From Spirosoma oryzae (GTDB lineage Bacteria; Bacteroidota; Bacteroidia; Cytophagales; Spirosomataceae), in the NCBI RefSeq assembly GCF_003002825.1, contig NZ_PVTE01000007.1, positions 248,001 through 312,000 on the forward strand: a DNA stretch of 64,000 bases, in the 5' to 3' direction. The notes under the pieces were generated by a model. It worked only from the letters and a program-made list of their open reading frames with translations, made no database searches and was not told the origin of the DNA. This document shows, one piece after another, positions 2 through 6,337 of this stretch. Numbering within the stretch: position 1 is the stretch's first letter; the number at the start of each line of letters is the position of its first letter. A program made the position numbers and the translations under genes.

Positions 2-1471
2 TTGCTGCTGGCGCTGCTGATCGGCGTACCGCTGGGTATCTTGATTGCGCGCCATGCCCGACTGGCGAGTGTAACACTGGGCGTGGCGGGCGTGCTGCAA
101 ACGATTCCTAGCGTCGCCCTGCTGGGCTTTCTGATTCCGGTGCTGGGTATTGGTATCGGGCCGGCGCTGGTCGCTCTGTTCCTGTATGCGCTACTACCCA
201 TCATTCGGAACACCTATGTCGGTATTACGGAGGTAAGCCCGTCGGTGACGGATGCGGCTCGCGGGCTGGGAATGACCGATAATCAAATCCTGCTCAAAGT
301 TGAACTGCCCTTAGCGTTACCTGTGCTTTTCGCCGGTATTCGTACCGCAACCGTCATTAATGTTGGCGTGGCTACCCTGGCTGCTTATGTTGCTGCTGGT
401 GGGTTGGGTGAGTTTATTTTTGGTGGCATTGCGCTGAGTAATACCAGTATGATTCTGGCGGGTGCCATTCCGGCTGCGTTACTGGCCGTTGGGTTCGATG
501 CTGGTCTGGCCTGGCTGCAACATCGATCGGGACGGCGCCTGCGTGTGGGCGCGGTGGTCTTTGCCCTGCTGCTGCCCATGCTATCCGGGTTTGCGCTGCT
601 TCCGGCAGGACATGATAGGCTGGTTGCCGGGTTCGCTCATGAGTTTTATGGCCGGGCCGATGGCTATCCCGGTTTGCAGAAAACGTACGGCTTGCAGCTA
701 ACGCCTAAGCTGATCGACCAGAATCTGATGTACGAGGCCATTCACCGGGGGCAGGTCGACCTTATCAGTGGCTATTCAACCGATGGTCGTATCAAAGCGT
801 TCGATTTACTGGTGTTGGCCGATGACCGACACGCATTTCCACCCTACGATGCCGCGCCCATCGTACGGCAGGCGGCTCTGGATCGCTACCCGGCTCTGGG
901 AACAACGCTGAATAAATTGGCTGGTCGCTTGTCAGACTCCGTCATGACTACGTTGAATTACCAGGTCGATTACCAGAAGCAGTCGCCGGAAGCGGTGGCG
1001 CGTCAGTTTCTGCAACGGACGGGGCTGTATAAAACGCCGTCGCCGGGCGAAAGAACGCAGACGATTGTGATGGGGTCGAAGGTGTTTACCGAGCAGTATA
1101 TTCTGGCCGAAATCTACCGGCAACTGATCGAGGGGCAAACACAACTACGGATGGTCACGAAGACGGGACTGGGCGGTACGCAGATTTGCTTTGATGCCCT
1201 GCGTACTGGTGCCATCGATTTTTACCCCGAATACACGGGGACGGGCCTGCTGGTCATCCTGCAACCACCAGCTGATACGTTGCGAACGATGTCGATGCAG
1301 TCCGATTCGGTCTACGCGTTTGTCGACGCGCAGTTCAGGGTTTCGTACAACATACAGTGGTTAAAACCGCTGGGGTTCAGCAACAGTTATGCGCTGATGA
1401 TGCGTCGCCAGCAGGCGCAGGCATTGGGCATTCGCTCGATACCCGATCTGGTCCGTTACCTACAACGATAG
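2..1471 (+). CDS. ABC transporter permease fused to a circularly permuted glycine betaine/osmolyte-binding domain (5' partial)
   Basis: Inner-membrane permease of an OpuB/ProW-type compatible-solute importer, fused to its own substrate-binding domain. The gene starts before the window. In-window residues 1-200 are permease: the coupling-helix region reads EVSPSVTDAARGLGMT and a last membrane segment lies at about 181-200. The binding domain should follow in the order 'GSK-FTEQ half' then 'EF-RxDGxPGL half'. Here the order is reversed: residues 206-345 match the second half (DGYPGLQKTYG, STDGRIKAFDL, FPPYDAAPIV, VARQFL) and 352-488 match the first half (GSKVFTEQ, GLGGTQ, YPEYTGTG, NSYALMMRR). 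A short linker (about 346-351) joins the old C-terminus to the old N-terminus. The reading frame is continuous and ends in TAG. The ATP-binding subunit is not in the window. The permease call is firm; the permutation is read directly from motif order, while retained binding function is inference. Confidence 0.88.
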   Translation: MLLALLIGVPLGILIARHARLASVTLGVAGVLQTIPSVALLGFLIPVLGIGIGPALVALFLYALLPIIRNTYVGITEVSPSVTDAARGLGMTDNQILLKVELPLALPVLFAGIRTATVINVGVATLAAYVAAGGLGEFIFGGIALSNTSMILAGAIPAALLAVGFDAGLAWLQHRSGRRLRVGAVVFALLLPMLSGFALLPAGHDRLVAGFAHEFYGRADGYPGLQKTYGLQLTPKLIDQNLMYEAIHRGQVDLISGYSTDGRIKAFDLLVLADDRHAFPPYDAAPIVRQAALDRYPALGTTLNKLAGRLSDSVMTTLNYQVDYQKQSPEAVARQFLQRTGLYKTPSPGERTQTIVMGSKVFTEQYILAEIYRQLIEGQTQLRMVTKTGLGGTQICFDALRTGAIDFYPEYTGTGLLVILQPPADTLRTMSMQSDSVYAFVDAQFRVSYNIQWLKPLGFSNSYALMMRRQQAQALGIRSIPDLVRYLQR

Positions 1472-4714: not shown

Positions 4715-6337
4715 TTATTTAAGGGCATTGGCAGCCAGTTCGGCGTATTCCTTGCGCTGCCGGGCCACGTCGATGGCCGTGTAGATAGCCTGCATCATGG
4801 ATGTCTCATCGGCCAGATTTTTTCCCGCAATATCATAAGCGGTGCCGTGGTCGGGGGAGGTCCGTACGGCTGGCATACCGGCCGTGAAGTTGACGCCTTC
4901 CTCAAACGCAATCGATTTGAACGGGATCAGTCCCTGATCGTGGTACATCGCGAGTACCGCGTCGAACTTGCCGTAACTGCGCGTACCGAAGAAGCCATCG
5001 GCCGGGTAAGGGCCAAACACCAGCTGCCCTTTGTTGCGCAGGTCATTCAGCAACGGCTTGATGATGTCCTGCTCTTCGTTGCCCAGCAGCCCTTCTTCTC
5101 CTGCATGGGGGTTAAGGCCCAGCACCGCAATTTTCGGCTTTTCGATACCGAAATCCTGCTTCAGCGACTGCATCATCAGGTTCAGTTTCTGCAAAATCCG
5201 CTCGCGGGTAACGTTTTGCCGTACCCGGCCCAGCGGTACGTGGCCCGTAACGACGCCCACGCGCAACTGCTCGCTGACCATGAACATCAGGTTGTCGGCA
5301 ACGCCAAACTGCTCGGCGAGGTATTCGGTATGACCCGGAAATTTAAACTCCTCAGACTGAATGTTGTATTTGTTGATCGGAGCCGTTACGAGCGCGTCGA
5401 TCTTCCCTTCTTTCAGATCGTCTACGGCGCGTTGCAGGCAGGCGAAGGCCGCTTGCCCCGCTTCGGGTGTCACCTGACCGGGCTGAATTTCCTGCTGCTG
5501 ATCGGGCCAGCACGTGATGACGTTCGTCATCTTATGGCTGATCTGCGAAATGCTGGGGGCTCCGTTGAGGTTCCAGTCTTTCATGTCCAGCAAATTCCGA
5601 TACCGGTTCATGATGCGCATCGACCCATAAATGACCGGCGTACATAGCTTTTGCAGGCGGTTGTACTGAAGGGCTTTCAGGATTACCTCCGGCCCGATAC
5701 CGTTGTAGTCGCCCATCGAGATACCGATCACCAGCCGGTTATCACCCGGTTGACCGCCGTCGCGGTCGGCGCGGCTGGCCTGATCGTCGGATTCATTGAC
5801 GGAAGCGTCACGCTGCCGGGACTCGCGTTGCCGGTTTTCCGGATTTCCGTTTTCCCGGTCACGACCCGACTGCTCCCGATTGCGCGGCTCCTGCTTGTCG
5901 GTCTCCCGTGCCTGACTGGCTTGCTCCCGATTGCGCGGTTCCTGACTGTTCGCATCGCGTTCGCGATTCGCCTGCCGGTCGCCAGTGCGTTGGTTTTGGG
6001 CGGGTCGCTGATTGGTTTCGCGGGTTTGCTGGTCGCGGGTATCGTCGGAACGGCGTCCGTTGTCTCGTTGCGGCCGGCTATCTTTCTGCACCATGTCGTG
6101 CCGTCCGTTCTGCCGGTTGTCGCGCCCGTTGTTGTCGCCCTGCGTAAACTCACGGCGGGGTTGCCCACGCCGGCCTCCTTCGCGCGGATTGGCTGGGGTG
6201 TTTTCAGCGGGGGCAGGCTGGGCAGTTGGCTCCACCGGGGCAGATGCGGTGGGCTGGGTAGCCTCTATATCGACCGATGAGTTGGGCAAGGGCACCAACG
6301 AATCGGGTGTACTATCTTCAGATTGGCGTTGTTCCAT
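4715..6337 (-). CDS. pdxA: 4-hydroxythreonine-4-phosphate dehydrogenase PdxA with long disordered N-terminal extension
   Basis: Enzyme of the DXP-dependent pyridoxal-phosphate pathway: NAD-dependent oxidation of 4-phosphohydroxy-L-threonine, which then feeds PdxJ. Residues 201-540 form the complete catalytic domain: GDYNGIGPEV, VTAPINK, FPGHTEYLA (metal His), VTGHVPL, GLNPHAGE (metal His), YHDQGLIPFK (metal His), VRTSPDHGTAYDIAGK. Residues 1-200 are extra. They are almost free of hydrophobic residues, rich in Arg, Gln, Asn, Asp, Glu and Gly, and carry an internal repeat QEPRNREQ at about 132 and 149. There is no Met between residue 82 and Met208 of the GDYNGIGPEV region, so a conventional start just before the catalytic domain is missing and the extension is probably translated. 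Divergent from the dehydrogenase gene at 6460. Confidence 0.93.
   Translation of the reverse strand: MEQRQSEDSTPDSLVPLPNSSVDIEATQPTASAPVEPTAQPAPAENTPANPREGGRRGQPRREFTQGDNNGRDNRQNGRHDMVQKDSRPQRDNGRRSDDTRDQQTRETNQRPAQNQRTGDRQANRERDANSQEPRNREQASQARETDKQEPRNREQSGRDRENGNPENRQRESRQRDASVNESDDQASRADRDGGQPGDNRLVIGISMGDYNGIGPEVILKALQYNRLQKLCTPVIYGSMRIMNRYRNLLDMKDWNLNGAPSISQISHKMTNVITCWPDQQQEIQPGQVTPEAGQAAFACLQRAVDDLKEGKIDALVTAPINKYNIQSEEFKFPGHTEYLAEQFGVADNLMFMVSEQLRVGVVTGHVPLGRVRQNVTRERILQKLNLMMQSLKQDFGIEKPKIAVLGLNPHAGEEGLLGNEEQDIIKPLLNDLRNKGQLVFGPYPADGFFGTRSYGKFDAVLAMYHDQGLIPFKSIAFEEGVNFTAGMPAVRTSPDHGTAYDIAGKNLADETSMMQAIYTAIDVARQRKEYAELAANALK

Follow-up and report, generated by a model that had tools for sequence, protein, structure and literature searches.

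A circularly permuted receptor domain fused to the permease of a probable glycine-betaine-type ABC importer in Spirosoma oryzae and other Bacteroidota

The 64,000-nucleotide stretch of Spirosoma oryzae DNA that was analysed (NZ_PVTE01000007.1, positions 248,001 to 312,000 of the forward strand; hereafter the window) opens with a gene in which an ABC importer permease is fused to an OpuAC-type binding domain (SBD) whose halves stand in swapped order, the second (C-half) before the first (N-half). The best explanation, given a probability of roughly 0.85, is that the gene encodes the membrane subunit of an ABC importer for a quaternary ammonium compound (QAC), most likely glycine betaine or else a related compound (choline, for instance), with a permuted receptor domain tethered through lobe D2, an ATPase encoded upstream and a single origin of the permutation in Bacteroidota.

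Domain layout of the fusion protein

The full gene encodes 518 residues (L003:7915-9471) and starts 86 bases ahead of the window. It is overlapped by 4 bases by the directly upstream gene for an ABC ATPase of 245 residues (L003:7181-7918), which together with a PF00528 match identifies the product as an ABC importer permease with its ATPase partner. The features were located as follows, with binding residues in the numbering of the 518-residue protein.

2-1471, + strand: fused permease/binding-domain gene, with 489 of its 518 residues inside the window
23-544, + strand: permease domain PF00528 (Pfam, residues 8-181 of the part inside the window, E=4.6e-23 for the protein)
536-613, + strand: extra hydrophobic anchor leading from permease to binding domain (residues 179-204 of the part inside the window, hydropathy maximum 2.37)
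620-1015, + strand: OpuAC second half, here first (PF04069 profile positions 115-256, profile match), carrying E243, R247, Y287 and Y311
641-655, + strand: E243 and R247, equivalent to EgtUC E375 and R379 (residue mapping)
773-775, + strand: cage tyrosine Y287, equivalent to EgtUC Y419 (residue mapping)
845-847, + strand: cage tyrosine Y311, equivalent to EgtUC Y443 (residue mapping)
1016-1060, + strand: new linker from the old C-terminus to the old N-terminus, 15 residues between the Pfam matches
1061-1465, + strand: OpuAC first half, here last (PF04069 profile positions 2-113, profile match), carrying K389, T422, Y440, T443, F488, N490 and Y492
1079-1087, + strand: K389-V390-F391, equivalent to EgtUC K242-I243-G244, with F for G as in the AfProX-like state (residue mapping; PMC9732360)
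1232-1243, + strand: cage residue Y440 (EgtUC F293) to T443 (EgtUC T296) (residue mapping)
1376-1390, + strand: F488, N490 and Y492, equivalent to EgtUC Y337, N339 and Y341 (residue mapping)

The anchor segment is followed by just a few linker residues before the binding domain begins. The protein was placed in PF04069 by Pfam in two stretches (202.1 bits against a cut-off of 21.2, E=1.5e-59), and the corresponding DNA-level stretches scored 119.2 and 86.0 bits, each above the curated cut-off, in one frame with no internal stop, in line with the intact frame claimed in the original prediction. A PDB sequence search aligned residues 138-276 of the EgtUC chain (9egi) with query residues 206-344, and chain residues 6-134 with query residues 353-485. 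The half order predicted from the DNA for positions 617-1471 was thus borne out to the coordinates by Pfam, by the DNA profile match and by the PDB sequence matches; separate matching of the halves to OpuAC-domain proteins, which had been suggested as a check, likewise gave a match for each half (Pfam, EgtUC chain), in swapped order. It had also been claimed that nothing was lost at the break, and no residues are missing there, since the two new ends of the domain are neighbours in normal-order relatives, for example IADLQDHPDLRFGFTNEF in L070. A profile search with PF04069 found the window locus as the sole OpuAC-family locus of its genome. Further along the window, on the minus strand at positions 4715-6337, a putative PdxA-like protein was read by eye from the sequence; its N-terminal extension of about 200 residues is rich in R, Q, N, D and E.

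Predicted fold

The binding domain was modelled with AF2 from 54 alignment rows (26 whole permuted sequences and 28 halves from normal-order kin), yielding a pLDDT of 94.1 and a pTM of 0.90, with mean pLDDT values of 91 and 93 for the blocks of the SBD model that span the linker region (141-160). The first four Foldseek entries for this model were all B. subtilis OpuAC, aligned over the full length (297-307 columns) with a TMq of 0.58-0.60, an rmsd of 5.0-5.3 and 11-13% identity. EgtUC ranked below them, at 44% identity over 142 columns (135 for two chains), and the other full-length alignments among the best 50 reached a TMq of 0.32-0.43. As a control, the normal-order relative L117 was modelled (pLDDT 95.9) and aligned over its full length to EgtUC, OpuBC and AfProX with a TMq of 0.75-0.96; OpuAC of the 2B4L type was absent from its best 50 matches, and 5nxy in that list carries the title OpuAC, yet its chain is named OpuCC in the PDB sequence search. 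The statement that the chain order is shared with OpuAC is based on the difference between TMq values of 0.58-0.60 and 0.32-0.43, together with the positions of the 2B4L halves in the PDB search described below. Structure prediction, also proposed at the outset, is consistent with one domain built from both halves, given a confident AF2 model in which the aligned cage residues are all present; the cage geometry would follow from these aligned residues and the overall confidence of the model.

Binding site

The EgtUC alignment of the PDB search served to map the binding residues, and K389, T422, Y440, T443, F488, N490, Y492, E243, R247, Y287 and Y311 are all in place in the window protein. The site corresponds to that of the Cluster F-III QAC-binding SBDs, with an aromatic cage (four aromatics and N/D) and a carboxylate-binding K/T/R (K389, Y440, T443, N490, Y492, R247, Y287 and Y311); the protein does not have the N-half-before-C-half order of the solved members matched here, so that it is kin by sequence with a different chain order. 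The equivalents of T275, Y293, F337, N339, E375 and Y443 showed no variation across all 29 of the representative fused permutants. Elsewhere the site varies: the K242 position is M in L140 and L142 (second copies in G184 and G134), the Y341 position is H, A or F in L038, L044 and L048, and the R379 position is M in L143 and L144. Because of these replacements, ligands may vary within the clade.

Selection, gene context and route of origin

Comparison of the window gene with 7 of 25 named relatives gave pN values of 0.12-0.24 and pS values of 0.71-0.77 in 7/7 pairs, and the gene is under purifying selection; no ratio is given since dS is saturated. Of the 93 fused locus rows, 75 have an ATPase gene upstream of the fusion on its own strand and, as a clue to the ligand, the gene neighbourhood offers the ATPase alone as a widely recurring upstream gene. 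The 18 fused rows that lack an upstream ATPase comprise 10 short stretches (among L013-L041) and 8 longer ones (L097, L100, L101, L103, L104, L107, L143 and L144), in which no such ATPase was found anywhere in the fetched stretch; the ATPase partner of these eight fusions may be encoded elsewhere or shared.

The duplication-and-deletion origin suggested in the original prediction is a plausible route, by which a duplicated domain would have been trimmed to the present order; a tandem SBD, with either the N-half or the C-half present twice, was found neither among 1695 ORFs of at least 150 residues in 238 loci nor among 9 unusually long frames, a negative result that is weak because many of the loci extend only about 1.5 kb to either side.

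Distribution of the permuted order

For every ORF of the fetched loci, the order was determined from its matches to permease, C-half and N-half. The loci are a non-random set made up of best matches, finds from a scan in which the window protein was the query, and hand picks. Permease-C-half-N-half was found in 95 locus rows (82 distinct genes or matched spans), N-half-C-half in 63 (51 distinct), N-half-C-half-permease in 28 (27 distinct) and permease-N-half-C-half in 15 (13 distinct). C-half-N-half without a permease was found in 10 rows (6 distinct), namely five Bacillota genes and L046, which is scored as stand-alone solely because its contig stops there.

In the window's family, PF04069 matched 109 of 222 genomes, 105 of them with two or more matches, where the rows among the matches listed are half-domain matches; G119 had one normal-order match, and G106, G129 and G150 had one weak match each. 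Matches were also found in 103 of 341 genomes sampled from the order and 88 of 395 sampled from the phylum, two samples that overlap. Several family codes of the order contain permuted fusions, as do f23 and f25 in the class and f43 and f53 in the phylum; N-half-C-half-permease genes (L063, L066) are likewise present in f43. A search of other Spirosoma-like genomes had been recommended with the prediction, and the same order was indeed found in the window's order and in other Bacteroidota, in the 82 distinct genes counted above. The permuted order is the rule in the window's group, nearly without exception. It had been allowed beforehand that all related fused transporters of the group might show the order as an already described type; the first part of this comes close to what was found (105/109, with exceptions such as L004 and L033 keeping the normal order), and for the second part no printed description was found in open-licence PMC texts. 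L004, from G119 in the window's family, is a normal-order SBD-TMD gene broken by an in-frame TAA.

A third architecture, N-half-C-half-permease, was seen in L063-L080, L082, L033, L153, L154, L156, L188, L191, L234 and L236, of which L234 is from one Gemmatimonadota plasmid. Three permease-N-half-C-half fusions from the Pseudomonadota search (L224, L225 and L226) have frames of 773-828 residues, with about 300 residues ahead of the permease match. Plasmid searches gave no evident permuted protein among the matches listed (40 of 988 and 15 of 569 records), where the order was read for H9, H2 and H7 (all normal) and the others were judged by piece number alone.

Outside Bacteroidota, the window protein was used as the query, a permuted relative being expected as a single row across both halves, and few candidates per genome were scored in these phylum searches. 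Among Bacillota, 53 of 199 genomes matched at E<=1e-42, and 3 rows spanned both halves; reading of the DNA identified these as stand-alone lipoproteins (e.g. ...LLSGC) with swapped halves beside permease and ATPase genes. The Bacillota matches had also been considered as tandem intermediates on account of printed frames of 578-609 residues, a candidate that was rejected when the DNA revealed stand-alone permuted lipoproteins of 323-341 residues. With a Bacillota permutant as the query, full-length permuted matches were found in 3 of 22 genomes of its order (two already known) and in 2 of 20 genomes of the class of G1358 (one already known), so that permuted lipoprotein-type SBPs in Bacillota comprise L173, L177, L180, L233 and L237. 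An overlapping Bacillota draw, in which 10 of 109 genomes matched at E<=1e-35, gave separate halves only among the matches listed, and no spanning row was listed for Pseudomonadota (74 of 299 genomes matching at 1e-20), Spirochaetota (13 of 120 at 1e-36) or Actinomycetota (17 of 149 at 1e-36). Gemmatimonadota and Cyanobacteriota, represented by single loci and single plasmid records, had the normal order.

Phylogenetic analysis

The SBD tree was calculated from 96 rows, thinned by identity from 183, with the halves aligned apart. The permuted Bacteroidota proteins formed one clade of 30 rows (97/97) apart from their normal-order relatives, and the SBD-TMD fusions formed another of 21 rows (100/99); this N-half-C-half-permease clade includes Bacteroidota rows as well as rows that came from searching Pseudomonadota and Spirochaetota. 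The three permuted rows of Bacillota (100/91) were nested within normal-order SBPs, with successive forks supported at 98/84, 98/95 and 100/92. The fused permuted clade received support of no more than 83/84 on the permease tree (93 rows), which is built from a domain that was never permuted. One shared origin for all permuted proteins of the family was rejected by the AU test on the SBD tree (p=0.0004) and again on the permease tree (p-AU 0.0002), both tests sharing the limits of the models. L173, L177 and L180 are included in the trees; L233 and L237, found later, are absent.

On this evidence the permutation is proposed to have occurred once in the lineage now found in Bacteroidota, and that of the Bacillota lipoproteins (L173, L177, L180) is, as judged from the trees, a second and independent event at the same loop. 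L173 and L177 match their best normal-order relative at 66% over the N-half and at 71% and 63% over the C-half, against just 39-45% per half for the window protein. The K242 site of L173 and L177 was mapped as S rather than K, apparently because the alignment is one residue out in GSKEFTE. The clusters of L228 (normal order) and L230 (permutant) are both arranged permease - permease - SBP with similar spacing, ATPase genes not being scored.

The break loop

The new ends of the Bacteroidota proteins and of L173, L177 and L180 lie between the SIxDL helix and the next (x)F/GxxxEF strand, near residue 133 of 269 in the normal-order model. When L054, a Bacteroidota OpuA-type protein that keeps the normal order, was used as the query of a PDB search, its C-half matched residues 9-156 and its N-half residues 163-268 of B. 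subtilis OpuAC (2B4L), and L. lactis OpuAC (3L6G) matched it in normal order. The 2B4L chain ends in ...NSIEDLKK, and its C-half starts near TIIGIDPGSG. In hhalign, used here solely for break-loop homology, the normal-order profile aligned with OpuA-type proteins over 236 columns (E=7.8e-10) through the break loop, and the permuted profile over 96 columns covering part of the C-half alone; the loop is taken to be homologous across subfamilies because the 236-column alignment crosses it. The window protein has the chain order of B. subtilis OpuAC, with the C-half before the N-half and the ends in the D2 loop.

At least three permutations seem to use one loop, those of the Bacteroidota fusion, the Bacillota lipoprotein and B. 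subtilis OpuAC, the last being regarded as independent on account of the close match of OpuAC to normal-order OpuA-type proteins. The loop would correspond to the boundary of old half-repeats in type II binding proteins, where a swap would keep each half whole. A further suggestion, speculative and rather doubtful, is that the loop at this ancient boundary is a natural hot spot where permutation has arisen three or more times independently, and that the permutation was kept in the Bacteroidota fusion since the tether moves from D1 to D2, changing both receptor docking on the permease and release to it.

Proposed architecture and alternative explanations

The receptor domain would be a natural circular permutant with the OpuBC/ProX(Af)/EgtU-type fold. 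Its chain would run from the last membrane helix into lobe D2 (the old C-half), through the short new linker in D1 and into the old N-half, ending in D2, to give a two-lobe clamp of the usual kind, its tyrosine cage complete and its tether to the permease running via D2 rather than D1; the ATPase from the directly upstream gene would work with the fused membrane subunit. The EgtUC lobes comprise residues 233-331 and 445-506 (D1) and 341-432 (D2) (PMC9732360), and the new ends are placed in D2, with the tether reaching D2, because they fall near EgtUC residues 363-367, inside the D2 range. The functional permuted fold of the original prediction is supported as probably functional by order, fold confidence, binding residues, selection and conservation; judged from these sequences and the model, the permuted order is confirmed and the importer is very probably functional.

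An assembly error or broken relic has next to no likelihood: nothing was found in its favour, and chance and assembly error are excluded by the occurrence of the same order in 82 distinct genes and by pN far below pS, in a domain that has no internal stop. More serious, if still improbable, is a swapped-dimer receptor in which each C-half would pair with the N-half of the partner subunit and the clamp would form between chains. The related importer OpuA is a homodimer of its fused subunit (PMC11065425), and proposals on how these folds evolved have included swapping and a dimeric ancestor (PMC9815098). However, a single chain was modelled with high confidence, linker included, the same order exists in a stand-alone Bacillota lipoprotein, and the swapped order is seen in a solved structure, that of B. 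subtilis OpuAC.

The shared chain order and the full-length Foldseek match to OpuAC might also suggest a Trp-type OpuAC subfamily member whose order was inherited from the B. subtilis OpuAC kind, a very unlikely origin that was rejected on sequence. Identity to OpuAC is 11-13%, compared with 42-46% for EgtUC and iSnFR-type proteins (C-half), the PDB sequence search gave no 2B4L match at E<=0.001 and an EgtUC chain at 2.8e-55, and OpuA-type relatives such as L054 and L. lactis OpuAC are in normal order. The OpuA-type OpuAC site is a three-tryptophan Trp-prism (PMC2861598), and the window domain has a Tyr cage and one Trp only. As EgtUC proteins are among the closest PDB relatives by sequence, an ergothioneine importer like EgtU is conceivable in place of one for betaine or choline. 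It is unlikely, though the least so of these alternatives: the EgtU signature G244/F293/Y337 is replaced by F391, Y440 and F488, and F/Y/F at these sites marks the AfProX-like glycine-betaine state as opposed to that for ergothioneine (PMC9732360). The permuted QAC importer with a tether through D2 is the preferred reading.

Novelty and comparison with known systems

The original prediction regarded the swapped order as unlike that of known OpuB/ProX-type proteins, which holds for the solved OpuBC/ProX(Af)/EgtU members matched here, all normal, and not for B. subtilis OpuAC, in which the order was known. A different segment order in OpuAC and ProX was reportedly noted by Kempf and Bremer in 1995, which would predate 2008. 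In 2008 circular permutation among the glycine-betaine-binding proteins 2B4L, 1R9L and 1SW1 was reported and said to be unreported before (PMC2395249), and the permuted order as such is already known. No text on permuted fused importers was found in the open-licence PMC literature, subscription papers being outside this search. What looks new is the permuted order in the OpuBC/ProX(Af)/EgtU-type family fused to a permease, together with the Bacillota permutants and the recurrence of permutation at a single loop.

Natural permutations with close unpermuted relatives are useful test cases. Two independent permutations in one receptor family (the Bacillota cluster being laid out like that of its unpermuted relative, L230 versus L228), together with OpuAC, at the same loop allow two questions to be put to the test: what makes certain sites of a fold tolerant of permutation, and whether it matters which lobe of the receptor domain is tethered. 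Annotation and similarity tools built on a single half order may break these importers up or place them wrongly.

Like the window protein, EgtUBC of Streptococcus pneumoniae (PMC9732360; PDB 7TXL) and other fused TMD-SBD OpuBC/ProX(Af) importers have permease and SBD in one chain and a separate ATPase; EgtUBC shares 44% identity over the C-half and the cage positions, but has the normal half order and the EgtU specificity residues, and its chain enters D1 first. The SBD-TMD fusions (e.g. L063-L080, L082, L153, L188, L234) have the same two domains per gene and the same cage residues, but the normal half order with the SBD first, in a separate clade. The CPSARST family also relates 2B4L, 1R9L and 1SW1 by circular permutation; there the structures of distant proteins were compared, and the portion of that report drawn on here contains nothing on a Bacteroidota permuted clade or fused importers (PMC2395249). 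B. subtilis OpuAC (2B4L) resembles the window protein in its C-half-N-half order and its ends in the homologous loop, and differs in its Trp-type site, its stand-alone form, its low identity (11-13%) and its different subfamily. The Bacillota permuted SBPs are of the same family and half order, with the same break loop (read in L173, L177 and L180), but they are stand-alone proteins of independent origin (L173, L177 and L180 in the trees).
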